A stretch of 36,446 nucleotides of DNA from Candidatus Tharpella sp. (GTDB lineage: Bacteria; Desulfobacterota; Anaeroferrophillalia; Anaeroferrophillales; Tharpellaceae). Location: assembly GCA_021161425.1 (NCBI GenBank), contig JAGHAQ010000120.1, positions 1 through 36,446 of the forward strand. Direction: 5' to 3'. Below the pieces are notes generated by a model. The model saw only the letters and a program-made list of their open reading frames with translations, did no database searches and was not told the DNA's origin. Shown piece after piece: positions 904 through 33,382 of the stretch. Numbering within the stretch: the first letter of the stretch is position 1; every line of letters begins with the position of its first letter. The translations under genes were made by a program, and so were the position numbers.

Positions 904-1179
904 CTAACGCGATTCAAAAACAAAAAGAATCTCATTGTCGCGAATCATATGGAGTTCGCGGCGAACAACGAGTTCCTGATAACGGATATCACTCTGCAAA
1001 AGGCGGATTTTGTGACTTAAACACTGATTTTCAACCTTAAGCTCCAGGTTGTGCTCCCCGATACGATCAATTTCTCTTTCGACCGTCCTTAAAGCCCGAT
1101 CCCCGCGGCTACCAAACCAGGTAAGCCAGACGAAATAGCAGATAACAACCAGCAAGAAGCCGGAGATCAACTGTTTCAT
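904..1179 (-). CDS. Small membrane protein with one N-terminal TM and a coiled coil, FtsB/DivIC-like
   Basis: MKQLISGFLLVVICYFVWLTWFGSRG TM, then a heptad-like segment. ATG at 1179 overlaps the TGA of the tonB-like gene (ATGA), so the start is placed downstream of the track ORF start. Confidence 0.6.
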   Translation of the reverse strand: MKQLISGFLLVVICYFVWLTWFGSRGDRALRTVEREIDRIGEHNLELKVENQCLSHKIRLLQSDIRYQELVVRRELHMIRDNEILFVFESR

Positions 1180-2039
1180 CGGGGCACCCGAAAAACGATG
1201 CTGATCGTCCCCCACTGCTCCGGCTGCGGAAGATCAGACACAAGGATGGAAAAACGCCACTGCTGCAAAAATCTCTCGGCCACATTGACAAGTTTCAGAT
1301 CGCCAATTTTTAAGGCCTCAACCCGGCTGACTCTGCCATCGGGCCGCACCCAGAAACGGAAATCAACAGTGACATCTTTGACTAGAGAAATTTTCGGCAA
1401 CTCCGGGCGAAAGAGTACTTGCCGACTCCGCGCCACCGGCCCACTCAAACCATAATCCTCTTCAGCGACTGCTTTTTCAGGTGCATCGACCGAAAGTAGG
1501 GATTTCTTGCCGGAGGAGGATAGCAGCTCTTCGACCAAAGCCCCTGATTCAGCAGTCGATCCCTTAGGGGCTCCACCAAAACTTCGGCCGCTCAATCTGC
1601 CAGCCGGTTTTTTGCCCAACCGCCCTAAAAGTTCTTGCGGCCGGGTCAAAACCACCGTTTCAGGCAGAGGAAGTGTTTGAAACGGTGATTTATCCAGAGG
1701 TATCACCACCGGCAATTTGATCGGCGCCGGGGGCAAGAGCGGTGCCTCACCGAGAGCTGATAACTCTTTCAAACGATGATCAATTAAAGTTGAAACATGA
1801 CCATCAGCCAACAGAGAGGAAGGCTTTTCCGCCACAGGAGGCTCAGGCTCGGGTATAACTTCCGGCTCAACCAAGGTAACCTCAATTACAGTTCCGGTCA
1901 ACAGGGCCAAACGATTGAGATGGATATTGAAGTATCTGGTTATATCCGGCAGAGCCGCAATCAGTACAGCATGCAAAAGGCCGGAGAGAATCAGAAAAGG
2001 AATCAGGCGAACCGGCTTATAGCGTAGTGTTGACAGCAA
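1176..2039 (-). CDS. TonB-family energy transducer
   Basis: N-terminal TM, Pro/Glu-rich linker (EPEVIPEPEPPVAEKP) and C-terminal TonB-like domain (GRVSRVEALKIGDLKLVNVAERFLQQWRFSI...ISIVFRVP); next to ExbD/ExbB-like genes. Confidence 0.85.
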   Translation of the reverse strand: MLSTLRYKPVRLIPFLILSGLLHAVLIAALPDITRYFNIHLNRLALLTGTVIEVTLVEPEVIPEPEPPVAEKPSSLLADGHVSTLIDHRLKELSALGEAPLLPPAPIKLPVVIPLDKSPFQTLPLPETVVLTRPQELLGRLGKKPAGRLSGRSFGGAPKGSTAESGALVEELLSSSGKKSLLSVDAPEKAVAEEDYGLSGPVARSRQVLFRPELPKISLVKDVTVDFRFWVRPDGRVSRVEALKIGDLKLVNVAERFLQQWRFSILVSDLPQPEQWGTISIVFRVPR

Positions 2040-2068
2040 CGATCACCTCTTTTCCAGTGAACTTACCC

Positions 2069-2479
2069 CTACTCTTCATTGGGCTCGGTAGCAATCGCCA
2101 ATTTGTTCAAACCGGCACTCTTGGCGGCATCCATAACCTTGACCACGAGACCGTGATAGACCTTTTTATCAGCTTCAATCACGACCAGAACATCATCACC
2201 TTGCTCTTTTCCCACAGCCTGAAATTTTTCCCGTAACTGAGGTAAAGAGAGTTTCTTCCCTTCAAGATAGATCCTGCCGCTGGCTTCAATCGCCACCCGT
2301 AAAGTGGTCTTCTTCTTTTTTATCTGTTCGGCGGAAGACTTCGGCAAATCAATCTTTATCCCGGGATTAACTGAGAGACTGGTGGAGAGCATAAAAAATA
2401 TCAACAACAGAAAAACAACATCGACAAGCGGTGTCATATCAAGCTGTACATCATCCCGACTGCGAGTTTGAAAACGCAT
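2069..2479 (-). CDS. ExbD/TolR-family biopolymer transport protein
   Basis: RDDVQLDMTPLVDVVFLLLIFFMLSTSL is the characteristic ExbD/TolR TM with functional Asp. Confidence 0.93.
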   Translation of the reverse strand: MRFQTRSRDDVQLDMTPLVDVVFLLLIFFMLSTSLSVNPGIKIDLPKSSAEQIKKKKTTLRVAIEASGRIYLEGKKLSLPQLREKFQAVGKEQGDDVLVVIEADKKVYHGLVVKVMDAAKSAGLNKLAIATEPNEE

Positions 2480-2491
2480 AAGCTGTTACCC

Positions 2492-3103
2492 TCACTCCCC
2501 GTCCTGATCAATAAGATCAAGAATCTCAATCGAAACCCGCTCCATACGCAGGATCCGCTTATCAACCCGGGAGCGCAGGAGTTTATAGAAAACAAAAGCG
2601 GGAATCGCCACCGTCAAACCGGTCGCCGTCGTAATCAACGCCTCGGAAATACCACCGGCCAGCATCTGGGGATTTCCGATACCGGCGTGAGAAATAACAC
2701 TGAAAGCCTTGATCATACCGGTTACCGTACCTAACAGACCAAGCAGAGGAGCGATTCCGGCAATGGTTCCGAGAATGGTCAAAAAACGTTCAAGATTGGC
2801 CGCTTCGAGACGACCAACATCCTCAATCGCTTCTTTAACCTGCTGGCGCGATTTATTGTGCCGTGAGATGCCGGCCATCAGAACCCGGGCAATTGAGGAA
2901 TTATTGAGACGACACTGGGTCAGGGCATCCTCCATCCGCTGCTGGCGAACCAGATCACTGACCTCAATAATAAACTTATCCGGGATGATCCGGCTCCGAC
3001 GCAGAGCAAAAAGACGCTCGAAAAGGATTGCCAGAGTAAGAACCGAGCAGATCATAATCGGGTACATCAGGTACCCGCCCTTCATAACAAACTGATACAT
3101 CAA
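2492..3103 (-). CDS. ExbB/TolQ/MotA-family proton channel protein
   Basis: MotA/TolQ/ExbB signature ...IAGIAPLLGLLGTVTGMIKAF...GGISEALITTATGLTVAIPAFVFYKLL. Confidence 0.93.
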   Translation of the reverse strand: MMYQFVMKGGYLMYPIMICSVLTLAILFERLFALRRSRIIPDKFIIEVSDLVRQQRMEDALTQCRLNNSSIARVLMAGISRHNKSRQQVKEAIEDVGRLEAANLERFLTILGTIAGIAPLLGLLGTVTGMIKAFSVISHAGIGNPQMLAGGISEALITTATGLTVAIPAFVFYKLLRSRVDKRILRMERVSIEILDLIDQDGE

Positions 3104-3188
3104 AAGCCTCCAGTTAACGGGAAAAAGCGTATATTATTCACCATCAAATCCATAATCACAAATCTAAACCAATAATTCTATCGTTCTC

Positions 3189-6100
3189 TTACATTTTCAG
3201 CAACAAGTATTTCAACTCTTTTTTCTGAACCTCTGTAAGGGGTATAGAATTCAATTTTTCGGTCATTTTTTTTAGCGTCTGTTCATCCTTCTCTTTTTGG
3301 GCCAAACGAACCACCGCCAGCAGAGCGTCGGCAACCAGTTTCTCCTGTTTAGGGAAGAGATAACTTAAGCGCAGGTAGGATTGCTGCGCCTCACTGATGC
3401 GCCCGGCTTTTTCAAGAACTGCGGCCCGGGCCAGAGCCGCAGCCGCGGCCTCGGTGAGAAGTGGGTTCTTAACCGCCTTGTCGTAAAAAAAGAGAGCCTC
3501 ATCGAACTTTTCCTGTTCAGCAAAGAGGGTTCCAAGACCGACAAAAGCGACAAAAGCCGAATTGTCGCGACGTTTTTCATCAATCACGGCCAGATAATGA
3601 CTGCGCGCGTTGGCAAAATCTCCCTGCTGTTGATAGATCTCGGCCATCAGCAGCGTTACCTGTCTTTTGAGACCGGGATCGGGACAAGCCTCCGACAACC
3701 CGGATAAGGTCGCCAGGGCCGCCTCTAAGTCTTTTTCGGCAAAAGCATAACGGGCCAGAAATAAACGACAGTCACACTCATATTTACTCAAAGGAAAACG
3801 CTTCAGTAGGCGCCGGCAATCATCTCGGGCCTCTTTTTGACGGCCTTTATCGAGATCGAGTTTAAAGTGACGATAAAGAGCCTCAAGGGCAAGATCCCCG
3901 GCGTAATCACCCTTTTCCAACTGCTTTAGAAGCACCACTAGATCAGCCTGACGGCCCTGACGCTGGTAGAGATCGGTGAGCAGCAACATCAACGGTACGG
4001 TATAGGAAGACTCTGGGAAACGGGCTATAAAATTTTTCACCTCAATCTCAAGATAGGAAAATTTATCCTGATTGTAGGCCAGAAGTAACATCCCGTAACT
4101 CGCTTTTTCATCAATCGGCCCGCCGGAATAAGAGCGCTTGGCATCAAGATAGACAAGCTGGGCTTTCAGATAGTCCCCCAAATTAAAGTAACTCTCTCCC
4201 ATCCTGATCAAAGCCCGACCGCTGACTTCGTCACCGGGATACTTATCTATCAGCCGCTGATAGGTTTTTATGGCCTCCGGAAATTTCTCAAGACTGAATA
4301 AACTCTCCCCGAGGTTGTCGAGTATCTCGGCATTCAGGCCAGCATCAATGCCGCTTTCAGGAGCTAAAAGGTCAGTGAAAATAGCTGCTGCCTCTTCAAA
4401 CTCTCCCTGCCGAAGAGCGATCAGACCTCTATAGTTTTGCGCTCGGGAAAGAAAAGGACTCTGTGGATAACGCTCGACAAACCGGTCCAGAGCCTCTTCC
4501 GATTTCCGGTCACGATGCTGGTTAAAGAGCGCTTCAGCCCGATTAATTTCAGCATTCTGAATAATGAGTGGCGATTTTCCGGTCTCCTCGGCAAACCCCA
4601 GATAGACGGAGAAATCATTGATTGCCCAATCAAATTCATTGTTTTTCAAAGCCGCCCAGGCCCGTTCGTAGAGAAGGTCGGCCCGCGCTGATGGGGCACA
4701 ATCAATCGGCAGTGATAAAAGGAGACTCAAAGTTTGAGGGAATTTTTCGAGACGGTTCAAGGAACGAGCCAACAAAAGATACATGAGAGAGAGGTCGGCG
4801 CTCGGCAAAATCTTCTCTTTTGCGGCAAACAATCCCTCCAAAATAACAAGAGCTTTATCCGGCTCCCCGGCTACAAGCAGAACCTGAGCCTGTTCAAGCC
4901 GTAAAGCGCGGGCTGCATTTCCATCGAATACCTCAATGCCGAGGCCAAGGGTTTCCAGAGCCTTATCATTATCGCCCAATTTAGTCTGAAGCCGGGCCAA
5001 GCGGCGATAATCATCGGCCTGCACCAACAAAACGGGAAAAGAGGTTATTAGTCGCTGCCCCAAAACCGTAGCCTCTTCATACTCTTCAGACTCAAGGTAA
5101 GCAGCTGTCAACTCCCGCAAGGCGGCAGCCGCAACTGCGGCTTCTTGCAACTCATCCGGGCGGGAATCAAAAATGTGTCGGGCTTCAATCAACTTTTTCT
5201 GCTTAAGCAGTGAAAGTATTTCACCTAAAAAAGCGAGCGGCACAACATCATCAACACTTGCGATATCACTTTCTAAACCTCTAAAAAGGGCTTGGGCATC
5301 ACCAAAAATCCCAAGGAAATAGAGACACCAGCCGCGCGCGAGATCAGCTTGACGCTGCAACATATCACTACCGGAAACCGACTCGGGCAGGGCCTCAAGA
5401 TAGCTGAGTGCCGTTTGATAGTCGCGCTGGTTAAAGGAGATCGTCGCCAGACGATAGAGAGCCACTCGATACTCCGCAGCTTCGGGATAGCCGTCCGTCA
5501 GTCGCAAAAAGGTTAAACGACCCGCCTTCGGCTGGCCGGCATGAAAAAGGGCTTCGCCCTTCCAGAAAAGAGCCGCCGCCGATAAGCGCTGATCAAGGCT
5601 TTGGGCAGCCACTGTAAACCACTTTACAGCTTCCTGATACTCTTTCTCACGATAATCAAGCCAAGCTAGCGAGTAACATGAAAAATGGTAAAAACGGTTC
5701 GTTGTGGATTCTGTCACAAAAGCAAAATGGCGCCTGGCTGTACTATAGTTCTCATCTCGAAAAGCGATCTCGGCCAACCAGTAATGAAAATCAGGAACTA
5801 ATTCGGAATTCTTAAATTTTTTAAGTCCGGCCCGAAAATACCCCTTGGCTTCATCCAGAAGACCATCAAGGTACTTTTGCCGACCGCTGCGATAATAGCT
5901 TTCAACCCCACCAAAACCCCGGGCTAAAGAAGCGGTAACCGGATTCCGGTAGGCACAGCCGGGGGTTTGGGCAGCTGCGGTCTCCCAATTGGGGCCCGTC
6001 CGGCTCTCACTAACCTCAAGAGTCAATTTATCGGCCACCGGTTCCAGTTTGATTCCAGGAGCCAACGCCGGCAACAGACCGAAATCACGAAAACCCTCAA

Positions 6101-6251
6101 GCCGGGCACTATCCTCACCAATAACCACGACCTCGGGCAAGTGCAATCCCTCCCCTGACTGGTTTGAGAAGAGGGGCTGCCAGGAGAAGATCAACATGGT
6201 GACCAGAAGCCAGGCGGCAAAATTTCTAATTCGCAACATAAAAGATGTCAA
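3189..6251 (-). CDS. Large exported tetratricopeptide-repeat protein, 1020 aa
   Basis: N-terminal signal-like segment (MLRIRNFAAWLLVTMLIFSWQPLFS), many TPR-like motifs (e.g. ALFNQHRDRKSEEALDRFVERYPQSPFLSRAQNYRGLIALRQGEFEEAAAIF); heads the ExbB/ExbD/TonB gene string. Confidence 0.9.
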   Translation of the reverse strand: MTSFMLRIRNFAAWLLVTMLIFSWQPLFSNQSGEGLHLPEVVVIGEDSARLEGFRDFGLLPALAPGIKLEPVADKLTLEVSESRTGPNWETAAAQTPGCAYRNPVTASLARGFGGVESYYRSGRQKYLDGLLDEAKGYFRAGLKKFKNSELVPDFHYWLAEIAFRDENYSTARRHFAFVTESTTNRFYHFSCYSLAWLDYREKEYQEAVKWFTVAAQSLDQRLSAAALFWKGEALFHAGQPKAGRLTFLRLTDGYPEAAEYRVALYRLATISFNQRDYQTALSYLEALPESVSGSDMLQRQADLARGWCLYFLGIFGDAQALFRGLESDIASVDDVVPLAFLGEILSLLKQKKLIEARHIFDSRPDELQEAAVAAAALRELTAAYLESEEYEEATVLGQRLITSFPVLLVQADDYRRLARLQTKLGDNDKALETLGLGIEVFDGNAARALRLEQAQVLLVAGEPDKALVILEGLFAAKEKILPSADLSLMYLLLARSLNRLEKFPQTLSLLLSLPIDCAPSARADLLYERAWAALKNNEFDWAINDFSVYLGFAEETGKSPLIIQNAEINRAEALFNQHRDRKSEEALDRFVERYPQSPFLSRAQNYRGLIALRQGEFEEAAAIFTDLLAPESGIDAGLNAEILDNLGESLFSLEKFPEAIKTYQRLIDKYPGDEVSGRALIRMGESYFNLGDYLKAQLVYLDAKRSYSGGPIDEKASYGMLLLAYNQDKFSYLEIEVKNFIARFPESSYTVPLMLLLTDLYQRQGRQADLVVLLKQLEKGDYAGDLALEALYRHFKLDLDKGRQKEARDDCRRLLKRFPLSKYECDCRLFLARYAFAEKDLEAALATLSGLSEACPDPGLKRQVTLLMAEIYQQQGDFANARSHYLAVIDEKRRDNSAFVAFVGLGTLFAEQEKFDEALFFYDKAVKNPLLTEAAAAALARAAVLEKAGRISEAQQSYLRLSYLFPKQEKLVADALLAVVRLAQKEKDEQTLKKMTEKLNSIPLTEVQKKELKYLLLKM

Positions 6252-6302: not shown

Positions 6303-6383
6303 GGGGACGCTCTTGCTTTATTGCTTTATAGCTCCACCTGCGGAGCAGGCGAGACAATAAAGCAATAAAGCAAGAGCGTCCCC
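6303..6383. repeat. Long palindromic element, MITE/REP-like
   Basis: Perfect 27-bp inverted repeat GGGGACGCTCTTGCTTTATTGCTTTAT (6303-6329) / ATAAAGCAATAAAGCAAGAGCGTCCCC (6357-6383) around a 27-nt loop that contains GCTCC/GGAGC. Confidence 0.9.
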
Positions 6384-30561: not shown

Positions 30562-31509
30562 ATGGCCATTTTCAATTACAAAAAGAGAGAGATCAGTGCC
30601 AAGATTGTCTATTACGGCCCGGCCCTTTGCGGAAAAACAACTAATGTTCAGCATATTCACCAGAAGTTAAATCCGCGACAGAGAGGCGAACTGGTCTCTT
30701 TGGCAACCGATGCCGACCGCACCCTCTTTTTTGATTTTCTGCCGATTGAACTGGAAAATGTGGGCGGTTTTAAAACCCGTTTCCAGATCTACACGGTTCC
30801 AGGGCAAGTCTACTACAACTCCACCCGCAAAGCGGTCTTGACCGGGGTCGACGGCGTCATTTTTGTGGCCGATTCCCAAATTTCCATGGAACAGGAGAAC
30901 CTCGAAAGCTTAAACAACTTGATAGAAAACCTCAAATACTACAATCGCGATGTCAACCAAATCCCCCTGATTCTGCAATACAACAGGCGTGATCTTGACA
31001 ATATTATGACCATGGAGGAACTCGACAAGCTCCTCAACCATCATCAGCTCCCCAGTTTTGCCGCTTCCGCAGCTACTGGAAACGGTGTCCTACAACCCCT
31101 GACAGCCTGCTGCAAACAGGTATTGCAGGATTTAAAACGCAAAAGCTTACAAACTGAACAGATCGCATCAAACAAACCGGGACCAAGCACATCTCCAGCC
31201 GCCCCCCCAGCTGGCAATAAATCCACAGAACCCGGCACCCAACCACAAAACCTCATCGAAAATAACGCCCTCACCACCGGCAACCACCCCCCGTTTGCCG
31301 TCCCCCAGACCGATCAGCCACCAACCGAGATGCACTCGGCAACCGGCAAACCATTTAAACCTGAAATCGCACAGGTAGGTAAAGCCAGACTCATCAACCC
31401 GCACACCATAACTCTACCTCTGCGCTTATCAACTGACGCCGACCAACGTAACCTGATCAGCGTCGATATCACTTTCAGCATTAACGATTTTTGTCGAGCG
31501 GATCCTTAG
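30562..31509 (+). CDS. MglA-like small GTPase with ~120-aa C-terminal extension
   Basis: AKIVYYGPALCGKTTNVQHIHQKL (P-loop), DRTLFFDFLPIEL, QIYTVPGQVYYNSTRKAVLTGVDGVIFVADSQ, YNRRDLDNI; Pro/Thr/Asn-rich tail then a short C-terminal domain. Confidence 0.9.
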   Translation: MAIFNYKKREISAKIVYYGPALCGKTTNVQHIHQKLNPRQRGELVSLATDADRTLFFDFLPIELENVGGFKTRFQIYTVPGQVYYNSTRKAVLTGVDGVIFVADSQISMEQENLESLNNLIENLKYYNRDVNQIPLILQYNRRDLDNIMTMEELDKLLNHHQLPSFAASAATGNGVLQPLTACCKQVLQDLKRKSLQTEQIASNKPGPSTSPAAPPAGNKSTEPGTQPQNLIENNALTTGNHPPFAVPQTDQPPTEMHSATGKPFKPEIAQVGKARLINPHTITLPLRLSTDADQRNLISVDITFSINDFCRADP

Positions 31510-31513
31510 AACG

Positions 31514-33382
31514 ATGCCGAAAGAAACACAAAAAAACCGCCTCAGTGCAAAAACCAGAAAACAGTTTCTTCTGGCCTTACTGTTGTTGGTTATTCTATGG
31601 CCGGCAACCAGCTGGGGAAGCGATCCATCGGGAGCCGCTTGGCAAAAAGTTATCCAATCACCCAGAACCTCGGTTCAGTTTTTAGAGCCGTCGCTAAACC
31701 ATTTCATCCAAAAACAACGACAGAGCCATATCCGCAATGCCACAATGTACTCCCTTGCCCTCCTTGAAATGGCCGCCCGAACAGACTTGAAAGATGAGGT
31801 TAAGACCCTGTTGACAAATGCGGCGATTACGATCTCGCCGGACTACTCATTTCCCGAAACCGCCCTGTGCAAACTCCTTTTTCAACAACACCACTACCTA
31901 AGATCCCTGCTCAGCATGGTTCGAGCCGTCAAGAAATTCCAGACCAATCCTCAGGAAAACTTTTACGCTTCAACCTTTTTCTGGTTTGCCGCCGCTTTCA
32001 CCCCTTTAGCACTGTTTTTTCTAATCACTTTTTTAATGACGATCAAATACTACCGGGCCTTTTGCGAAATGGGCCGGATCAAATTAAACCGCCAGGGGAA
32101 TTTCACCTTGCTAGCGGTCACGGCGGCAGCCTCCGTTATTATAATCCTAGTTCCGGCCCCCTTGCCCGGCCTACTCCTGCTGGCAATCGGGATCTCCCTA
32201 CTGGCAACCAGGCGGGATGCAATCACTTCAGCCCTGCTGCTCTCAACCCTTCTCATCGTGCCTCTGGCCTACGAAAAAGGCATGGCCTCACTACTGGCAC
32301 TCGACTCATCATTTTTCAAAGCAGCTCGGCATAACACGTCCGGTCTTTACAGTGAAACTGATGGAGTCGCCTTAAGACAGCCGGCCACCAACCAAAGCCA
32401 ACTGGCATTGCAGCTTTTTTCTCAAGCCGAGTCCGCCCGCCTCCGGGGAGAATACGCCAAAGCCAAAATTTTTCTGGAGAAAATAATCTCCGACAAGATT
32501 GAACTGGGCGCCGTTTACAACAACCTTGCCAACCTCTATCTTCTACAGGACAAGCCCGAAAAAACCGAAGCCCTATATCTTCAGGCCGGCAAACTTGAAA
32601 AAACCTCTGGAGCCCCATACTACAACCTCAGCCAAACCTATATCCGCCAATCTTTTGCTCTTGAGAAGAGTTCACAAGCCTTAGAGCGAGCCTTCAAGCT
32701 GGACCCGGCCTTAAGGCAATCTCTTGACAACAACAAAGAGCTCACCATACAGGGCAACACTAAACTGATATTCATGTCCTTACCTAAAAAATTTTACCGG
32801 CGCTATGCCGACTCTCAGCCCGGAAAAGATGTTTTTCTGCCGGAATTTCTCAGCCGCATTCTCTTTCCCGGAGCCGGCAACGGCAGCTATTTCACTATGG
32901 TTCTATTATCTCTGGGCGGCCTTTCCTACTTAGCAAAGCGGGCTCCGACAAACAGGAGAATCTGCATTAATTGTGGCCGACTGTTTCATCCGGCCCGAAA
33001 ACAGAGGGAAAAGAGCTGCCCCTCCTGTCGTTTCAGCAAACAGCCTGAGTTATCCGCTTTAGTGGATAACGCGACGAACGAAACCGGCCGGATGAGGAAT
33101 CGATCGTCAACCCTGATACTGACCGTAGCCGGTGCCCTTTTGCCTGGTTTTTACCCATTCATGACCGGTAACATTTTTATCGCCATGAGCCTATCACTCC
33201 CGATTCTACTCTGGCTCTACAATCTCCTCATCTGCCAAACCGGTATTATGGATCTTTTCCCACCTTCAACCGCATGGCTGAACTTTGTCTTTCCGGTCAT
33301 CTTCTGGAGTATTAATCTTGTTGCACTGGTTCTGACGCGCTACCGGCACCAGCGCCGGAATTTATCCAGGAGCAACTCATGA
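31514..33382 (+). CDS. TPR-containing multi-TM membrane protein with zinc-ribbon CxxC...CxxC
   Basis: Signal/TM at N-terminus, several TMs, TPR stretch (ALQLFSQAESARLRGEYAKAKIFLEKIISDKIELGAVYNNLANLYLLQDKPEKTEALYLQAG), CINCGRLFHPARKQREKSCPSC, further C-terminal TMs. Confidence 0.85.
   Translation: MPKETQKNRLSAKTRKQFLLALLLLVILWPATSWGSDPSGAAWQKVIQSPRTSVQFLEPSLNHFIQKQRQSHIRNATMYSLALLEMAARTDLKDEVKTLLTNAAITISPDYSFPETALCKLLFQQHHYLRSLLSMVRAVKKFQTNPQENFYASTFFWFAAAFTPLALFFLITFLMTIKYYRAFCEMGRIKLNRQGNFTLLAVTAAASVIIILVPAPLPGLLLLAIGISLLATRRDAITSALLLSTLLIVPLAYEKGMASLLALDSSFFKAARHNTSGLYSETDGVALRQPATNQSQLALQLFSQAESARLRGEYAKAKIFLEKIISDKIELGAVYNNLANLYLLQDKPEKTEALYLQAGKLEKTSGAPYYNLSQTYIRQSFALEKSSQALERAFKLDPALRQSLDNNKELTIQGNTKLIFMSLPKKFYRRYADSQPGKDVFLPEFLSRILFPGAGNGSYFTMVLLSLGGLSYLAKRAPTNRRICINCGRLFHPARKQREKSCPSCRFSKQPELSALVDNATNETGRMRNRSSTLILTVAGALLPGFYPFMTGNIFIAMSLSLPILLWLYNLLICQTGIMDLFPPSTAWLNFVFPVIFWSINLVALVLTRYRHQRRNLSRSNS

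Follow-up and report, generated by a model that had tools for sequence, protein, structure and literature searches.

The window (the whole stretch of 36,446 bp that was analysed) stems from a Desulfobacterota MAG of 1.6 Mb that is 63% complete; most of the genomes used for comparison are also MAGs. Candidatus Tharpella and Candidatus Anaeroferrophillacea are among its closest named relatives in the public set. According to ORF calling and Pfam, five consecutive genes on the minus strand code for a TPR protein of 1020 aa, ExbB, ExbD, TonB and DivIC (Table 1). A preliminary description of this DNA had listed the first four as a string of TPR, ExbB-, ExbD- and TonB-like genes, and both the coordinates and the Pfam families agree with it. 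The gaps between the first four genes are 85, 12 and 29 bases long, and the probable start of DivIC shares an ATGA with the stop codon of tonB, so that the five genes look like a single operon. The TPR ORF starts with TTG in the window; orthologues favour an ATG at 6239. HcyBio, YbeY and PhoH are encoded on the 5′ side of the TPR gene.

Table 1. Features of the TPR-TonB locus in the window.
Feature	Position	Strand	Basis
Exported TPR protein, 1020 aa	3189..6251	-	Pfam (many TPR families); structure model
Ton-box-like motif LPEVVVIGED, residues 38-47 of the TPR protein	6111..6140	-	conservation; profile and matrix scores
PGCAYRNPVT, residues 97-106 of the TPR protein, linker/solenoid junction	5934..5963	-	top-conserved 10-mer
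ExbB-like proton-channel subunit	2492..3103	-	Pfam MotA_ExbB 2e-35; own clade
ExbD-like subunit	2069..2479	-	Pfam ExbD 1e-36
TonB: N-terminal helix with SxxxH (SGLLH), linker, C-terminal TonB fold (about 200-287)	1176..2039	-	Pfam TonB_C 0.002; fold
DivIC/FtsB-like protein (likely start 1179)	904..1215	-	ORF and Pfam

The order PhoH-YbeY-HcyBio-TPR-ExbB-ExbD-TonB-DivIC is kept in two families of relatives, f1 and f2, as far as the contigs reach. This comparison covers 20 relatives, of which two more distant ones have the arrangement TPR-(ExbB-ExbD)-TonB-DivIC. The order from TPR to DivIC is also conserved in many families beyond f1 and f2, and DivIC adjoins tonB in most of the Desulfobacterota relatives.

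The HcyBio/TPR intergenic region carries an inverted repeat (6303-6383) with arms of 39 nt that are 87% complementary and a loop of 3 nt. Fragments of these arms recur elsewhere in the genome (contigs C48, C92 and C30), and the repeat resembles a palindromic mobile or REP-type element. A 121-aa ORF downstream of DivIC (458-823) has no family match. Two adjacent ORFs of 315 and 622 aa, upstream of a class II aldolase gene (30562-33382), have no Pfam match at 1e-10.

The TPR protein and its N-terminal motif

The TPR protein had been described as exported, and its architecture is in line with this. Pfam reports TPR-type families only, and the structure model (mean pLDDT 86) consists of an N-terminal helix that corresponds to a hydrophobic segment, the box region with a weak set of short strands, a disordered linker (about residues 73-106) and an all-helical TPR solenoid (about 104-1020). 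Plug domain and beta-barrel are thus absent from this protein. A fold search returned generic TPR solenoids only, e.g. from IFT-A, Ctr9 and Ski complex subunits. The protein scores 156 with the CpoB model TIGR02795 (cut-off 90), which we attribute to its repeated TPRs; a separate CpoB is encoded with TolB-Pal in relatives. CpoB/YbgF is a small TPR protein of the tol locus, which the protein from the window is not.

The segment GLHLPEVVVIGEDSARL was found exactly where it had been placed. Within it, LPEVVVIGED is the third most conserved of the 1011 10-mers of the protein among the 20 relatives, surpassed by the overlapping 10-mers of the PGCAYRNPVT stretch, the best of which ranks first. A motif model of 22 columns detects a single protein in each of 20 genomes, at E-values of about 1e-9 to 1e-11, the next matches being above 0.05. 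This indicates that the motif marks a single protein and not a family of clients; a search of the genome with the motif model for extra Ton-box clients gave none within an E-value of 0.05. The motif recurs in many Desulfobacterota families and in Schekmanbacteria. It is weaker in Nitrospirae, where the TPR-TonB pair and SxxxH are kept and exbB/exbD are not adjacent.

For a comparison with receptor Ton boxes, a scoring matrix was built solely from 14 boxes of receptors that belong to the same order or to its neighbours. Of the roughly 1010 windows in the protein, the motif scores best (9.6 bits, in the register HLPEVVVIGED; the register LHLPEVVVIGE scores badly). As high a score is reached by 0.014% of 535,000 background windows and, within residues 25-60, by 5 of 2000 shuffles, while most of the receptor boxes themselves score higher (leave-one-out, 0.6-28 bits). 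The box ranks first in 22 of the 31 TPR proteins from clusters that hold ExbB/ExbD. Among the remaining nine, three have the box on a barrel, one lacks its N-terminus, and in two more the top N-terminal window comes second (L049 and L099), being the box itself in L099 and not in L049. Some clusters with ExbB/ExbD have weak boxes (VFFGKD or VFLGKD in L110/L224, VIAIGRS in L247). In clusters with TonB directly behind the TPR gene the box never takes the first rank, and the four cases that seem to lack ExbB and yet rank first are contig ends.

By inspection, several relatives could plausibly be cleaved at an A-x-G site that precedes the box by about 8-12 residues (e.g. in L113, between AFG and VEGGTDPLELPELVV), so that the box should lie in the mature protein. 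In the protein of the window, a clear A-x-A site is missing from the signal segment, which may stay uncleaved. The preliminary description had asked whether the motif is lost with the signal, whether it is better conserved than the TPRs, and whether it co-occurs with an adjacent tonB. It sits after the signal segment, exceeds the TPRs in conservation, and accompanies an adjacent tonB across the relatives. The TPR protein thus carries a conserved, receptor-like box near its mature N-terminus, as is typical of Ton-box clients, and it is very likely, judged from sequence, that the motif is a true Ton box and that it sits on a protein other than a receptor. Residues 41-45 are modelled with low confidence (pLDDT about 60) in a small strand set with 54-58 and 62-65, and for this reason the box strand could also be structural.

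TonB, its motor and the rest of the genome

The TonB_C match of the window protein is below the curated cut-off, while all 33 of its 33 orthologues match PF03544 at E<=0.01. Residues 201-287 are modelled with a pLDDT of about 80-94 and in the TonB strand order. In Foldseek, this domain matches TonB from the FoxA complex (6i97), 1u07 and the BtuB:TonB complex (2gsk, TM 0.75), well above TolA, and is thus predicted to fold like TonB and not like TolA. In E. coli, the SxxxH of the N-terminal TonB helix couples TonB to ExbB/ExbD. SxxxH is present in every ExbB-bearing cluster with a readable TonB start, and in the window both partner genes are adjacent to tonB.

For ExbB of the window, NCBIfam scores pointed to TolQ. 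This assignment was rejected because in the tree ExbB from all TPR clusters forms one clade (90/97) that is apart from the TolQ of tolB operons. Two extra ExbB matches in f1 (G001:C57 and G012:C38) are MotA next to MotB.

The genome and its relatives also have TolB. It could be argued that ExbB, ExbD and TonB replace TolQ, TolR and TolA in division, that the TPR protein is a giant CpoB-like coordinator, and that the DivIC neighbour reflects division. DivIC is indeed a conserved neighbour, the window ExbB and ExbD score best to TolQ and TolR in NCBIfam, and tolQR is missing next to tolB-pal-cpoB in f1/f2 and in several further lineages. However, ExbB branches apart from TolQ, the predicted fold is that of TonB and not of TolA, tolB itself is kept elsewhere with TolB and Pal absent from the window locus, and G016 has a TolA-like gene beside tolB. 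The locus thus lacks what defines Tol-Pal (an ExbB from the TolQ clade, a TolA-type domain, TolB/Pal), and we regard such a replacement as improbable. As the tol loci of f1/f2 and of these further lineages lack tolQR, the ExbB and ExbD of the window could additionally drive TolA.

In a wider sampling (L122, L125, L126, L135, L138, L139 and others), lineages with TPR-TonB usually have tolB-pal-cpoB without tolQ and tolR. Most sampled lineages without a TPR-TonB cluster have tolQ-tolR-tolB-pal-cpoB together.

The system had been called an orphan, which holds for the contig, on which no plug domain was found. It does not hold for the genome, which codes for four receptors with plug domains and classical boxes and, on contig C92, for a separate canonical TonB2-type cluster. 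The latter has its own TPR protein, which is TtpD2-like, has 410 aa and does not carry a box.

These receptors leave room for another reading, in which the TonB of the window supplies energy to receptors whose genes lie elsewhere, and the TPR protein is an accessory of ordinary uptake that the box does no more than park on TonB. A precedent is TtpD2, the TPR protein of the Vibrio TonB2 operon, which is essential for iron transport (PMC6957404), and clusters that combine TPR protein, barrel and TonB do exist (see below). Against this, the genome has the separate C92 cluster with its boxless TPR protein, a receptor was found in the window-type cluster of none of the f1/f2 relatives, and the box remains in the TPR protein rather than in a partner. 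We consider an accessory role unlikely.

Boxes on barrels and loss of the motor

In clusters of the Goldiibacteriota/FCPU426 type (L241, L244, L248) and of the Omnitrophota type (L251, L253, L255, L256), the TPR protein has no box and its repeats begin right after the signal peptide. The product of the next gene is barrel-like, measures about 470-570 aa and has the same box close to the N-terminus (e.g. FKVPEILITGQ, IEIPETIVTGK); ExbB, ExbD and TonB follow where the contig is long enough. When 1050 ORFs were scored with a box model trained exclusively on TPR proteins, the barrels of L256, L253 and L251 exceeded all other non-TPR ORFs; the fourth, from L255, is close behind and also above background. 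In the box, P-E and T-G do not vary between barrels whose identity is otherwise only 14-19%. One barrel passes the cut-off of the receptor-barrel family PF00593 and others match this family weakly, and the family search recognised no plug in them. The box-bearing barrels are predicted outer-membrane proteins related to TonB-dependent receptors.

In Aquificaceae (L252, L254), a TPR protein of 852-854 aa with LKVRVVGKILEE near its N-terminus is immediately followed by ExbB and ExbD. A TonB adjoining ExbB/ExbD was not recognised there.

In family f9, which includes Syntrophaceae, the cluster no longer has exbB and exbD. SxxxH has been lost from the transmembrane helix of TonB in all loci (10 of 10), the C-terminal domain of TonB is kept, and the box is degraded (PEIIFLGKEE and similar) and never ranks first with the receptor matrix. 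By sequence comparison the box decays together with the motor; f9 counts as one loss. The remaining ExbB/ExbD of f9 adjoins a BtuB-like receptor in two of the three loci that were read.

At L289:2585-6060 and L290:217-4054, an ExbB/ExbD pair of f9 genomes adjoins a BtuB-like receptor with the classical Ton box VTLEPVVVTATRD. This type of ExbB/ExbD pair holds the only ExbB found in G100, G129, G157 and G270. In the one-contig genome G131 (1.1 Mb), the TPR gene is broken into two parts (L093:6106-8346) and its surroundings hold no recognisable gene for ExbB, ExbD or TonB, which looks like decay of the system.

Short motifs of a hydrophobic strand match easily, and together with the low-confidence strands around the box this might suggest a mere lookalike, i.e. 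a structural or docking element, for example one that docks to an outer-membrane partner. It would then not be expected that receptor-like barrels of sister clusters have the same motif close to their mature N-terminus, nor that this motif decays with the motor, so that we judge a lookalike to be very improbable. The swap of the box between TPR protein and barrel is the strongest evidence that the motif may be taken as a Ton box; swap and loss are associations seen among related genomes and do not count as independent trials.

Proposed mechanism and comparison with known systems

We think it reasonably probable that the adjacent TonB has the TPR protein as its client, binds it through the box and pulls it, where we infer binding, pulling, partner and output. 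This had been the hypothesis at the outset, and it is supported in part, as the box is conserved, lies next to tonB and is found on a barrel where the TPR protein lacks it; the orphan status fails at the level of the genome. The mature N-terminus would present a true Ton box (LPEVVVxGxD). The proton motive force would drive ExbB and ExbD, which would act on TonB via its SxxxH transmembrane helix, and the box would join the C-terminal domain of TonB as an additional beta strand. TonB would then pull the solenoid through the flexible linker, and the solenoid would probably hand the force to a partner in the outer membrane or the cell wall. Such a relay would replace the direct contact between TonB and barrel that is expected in the clusters with the box on the barrel. 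The barrel-bearing clusters suggest that the partner is in the outer membrane, and the DivIC neighbour hints at a role in division or envelope constriction.

Almost the only clients known for TonB are outer-membrane receptors, which it energises, as TolA does with TolB. Nothing relevant to a TPR protein with a Ton box was found in literature searches. On balance, we lean towards a widespread and undescribed class of TonB machines with a TPR-solenoid client and a portable box that has moved between the outer-membrane barrel and the TPR protein of one operon, in which proton-driven force is passed on via an adaptor instead of directly to a receptor. If this is true, several phyla have a third type of client that is resident and has its motor encoded alongside, which would broaden the uses of envelope-spanning force. 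The locus would also be a clean test system with one motor, one box and one client, for which the lineages with box swap or loss are natural controls.

With the classical TonB-ExbB-ExbD system and its receptors, the cluster shares the motor subunits, the SxxxH helix, the domain with TonB fold and the position of the box just after the signal peptide. It differs in the carrier of the box, an all-helical TPR solenoid that has neither plug nor barrel. Group B colicins are soluble proteins that carry a Ton box. Unlike the TPR protein they are secreted foreign toxins and not resident clients encoded with the motor.

In the Tol-Pal system, the disordered N-terminus of TolB binds TolA by beta-augmentation (PMC8928145). 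By analogy, a soluble periplasmic protein would be pulled by an N-terminal strand in both systems, pulling being a proposal for the window, and Tol-Pal also has a TPR protein (CpoB) and a link to division. In contrast to Tol-Pal, ExbB of the window is outside the TolQ clade, the TonB domain is not TolA-like, TolB and Pal are not in the cluster, and the client is a TPR solenoid and not a beta-propeller. The Vibrio TonB2 system resembles the window cluster in that a TPR protein is encoded with TonB, ExbB and ExbD. There, however, TtpD2 has 425 aa and is encoded at the end of an operon that also holds TtpB2 and TtpC2, whereas the TPR protein of the window has 1020 aa and is encoded first in a cluster without TtpC.
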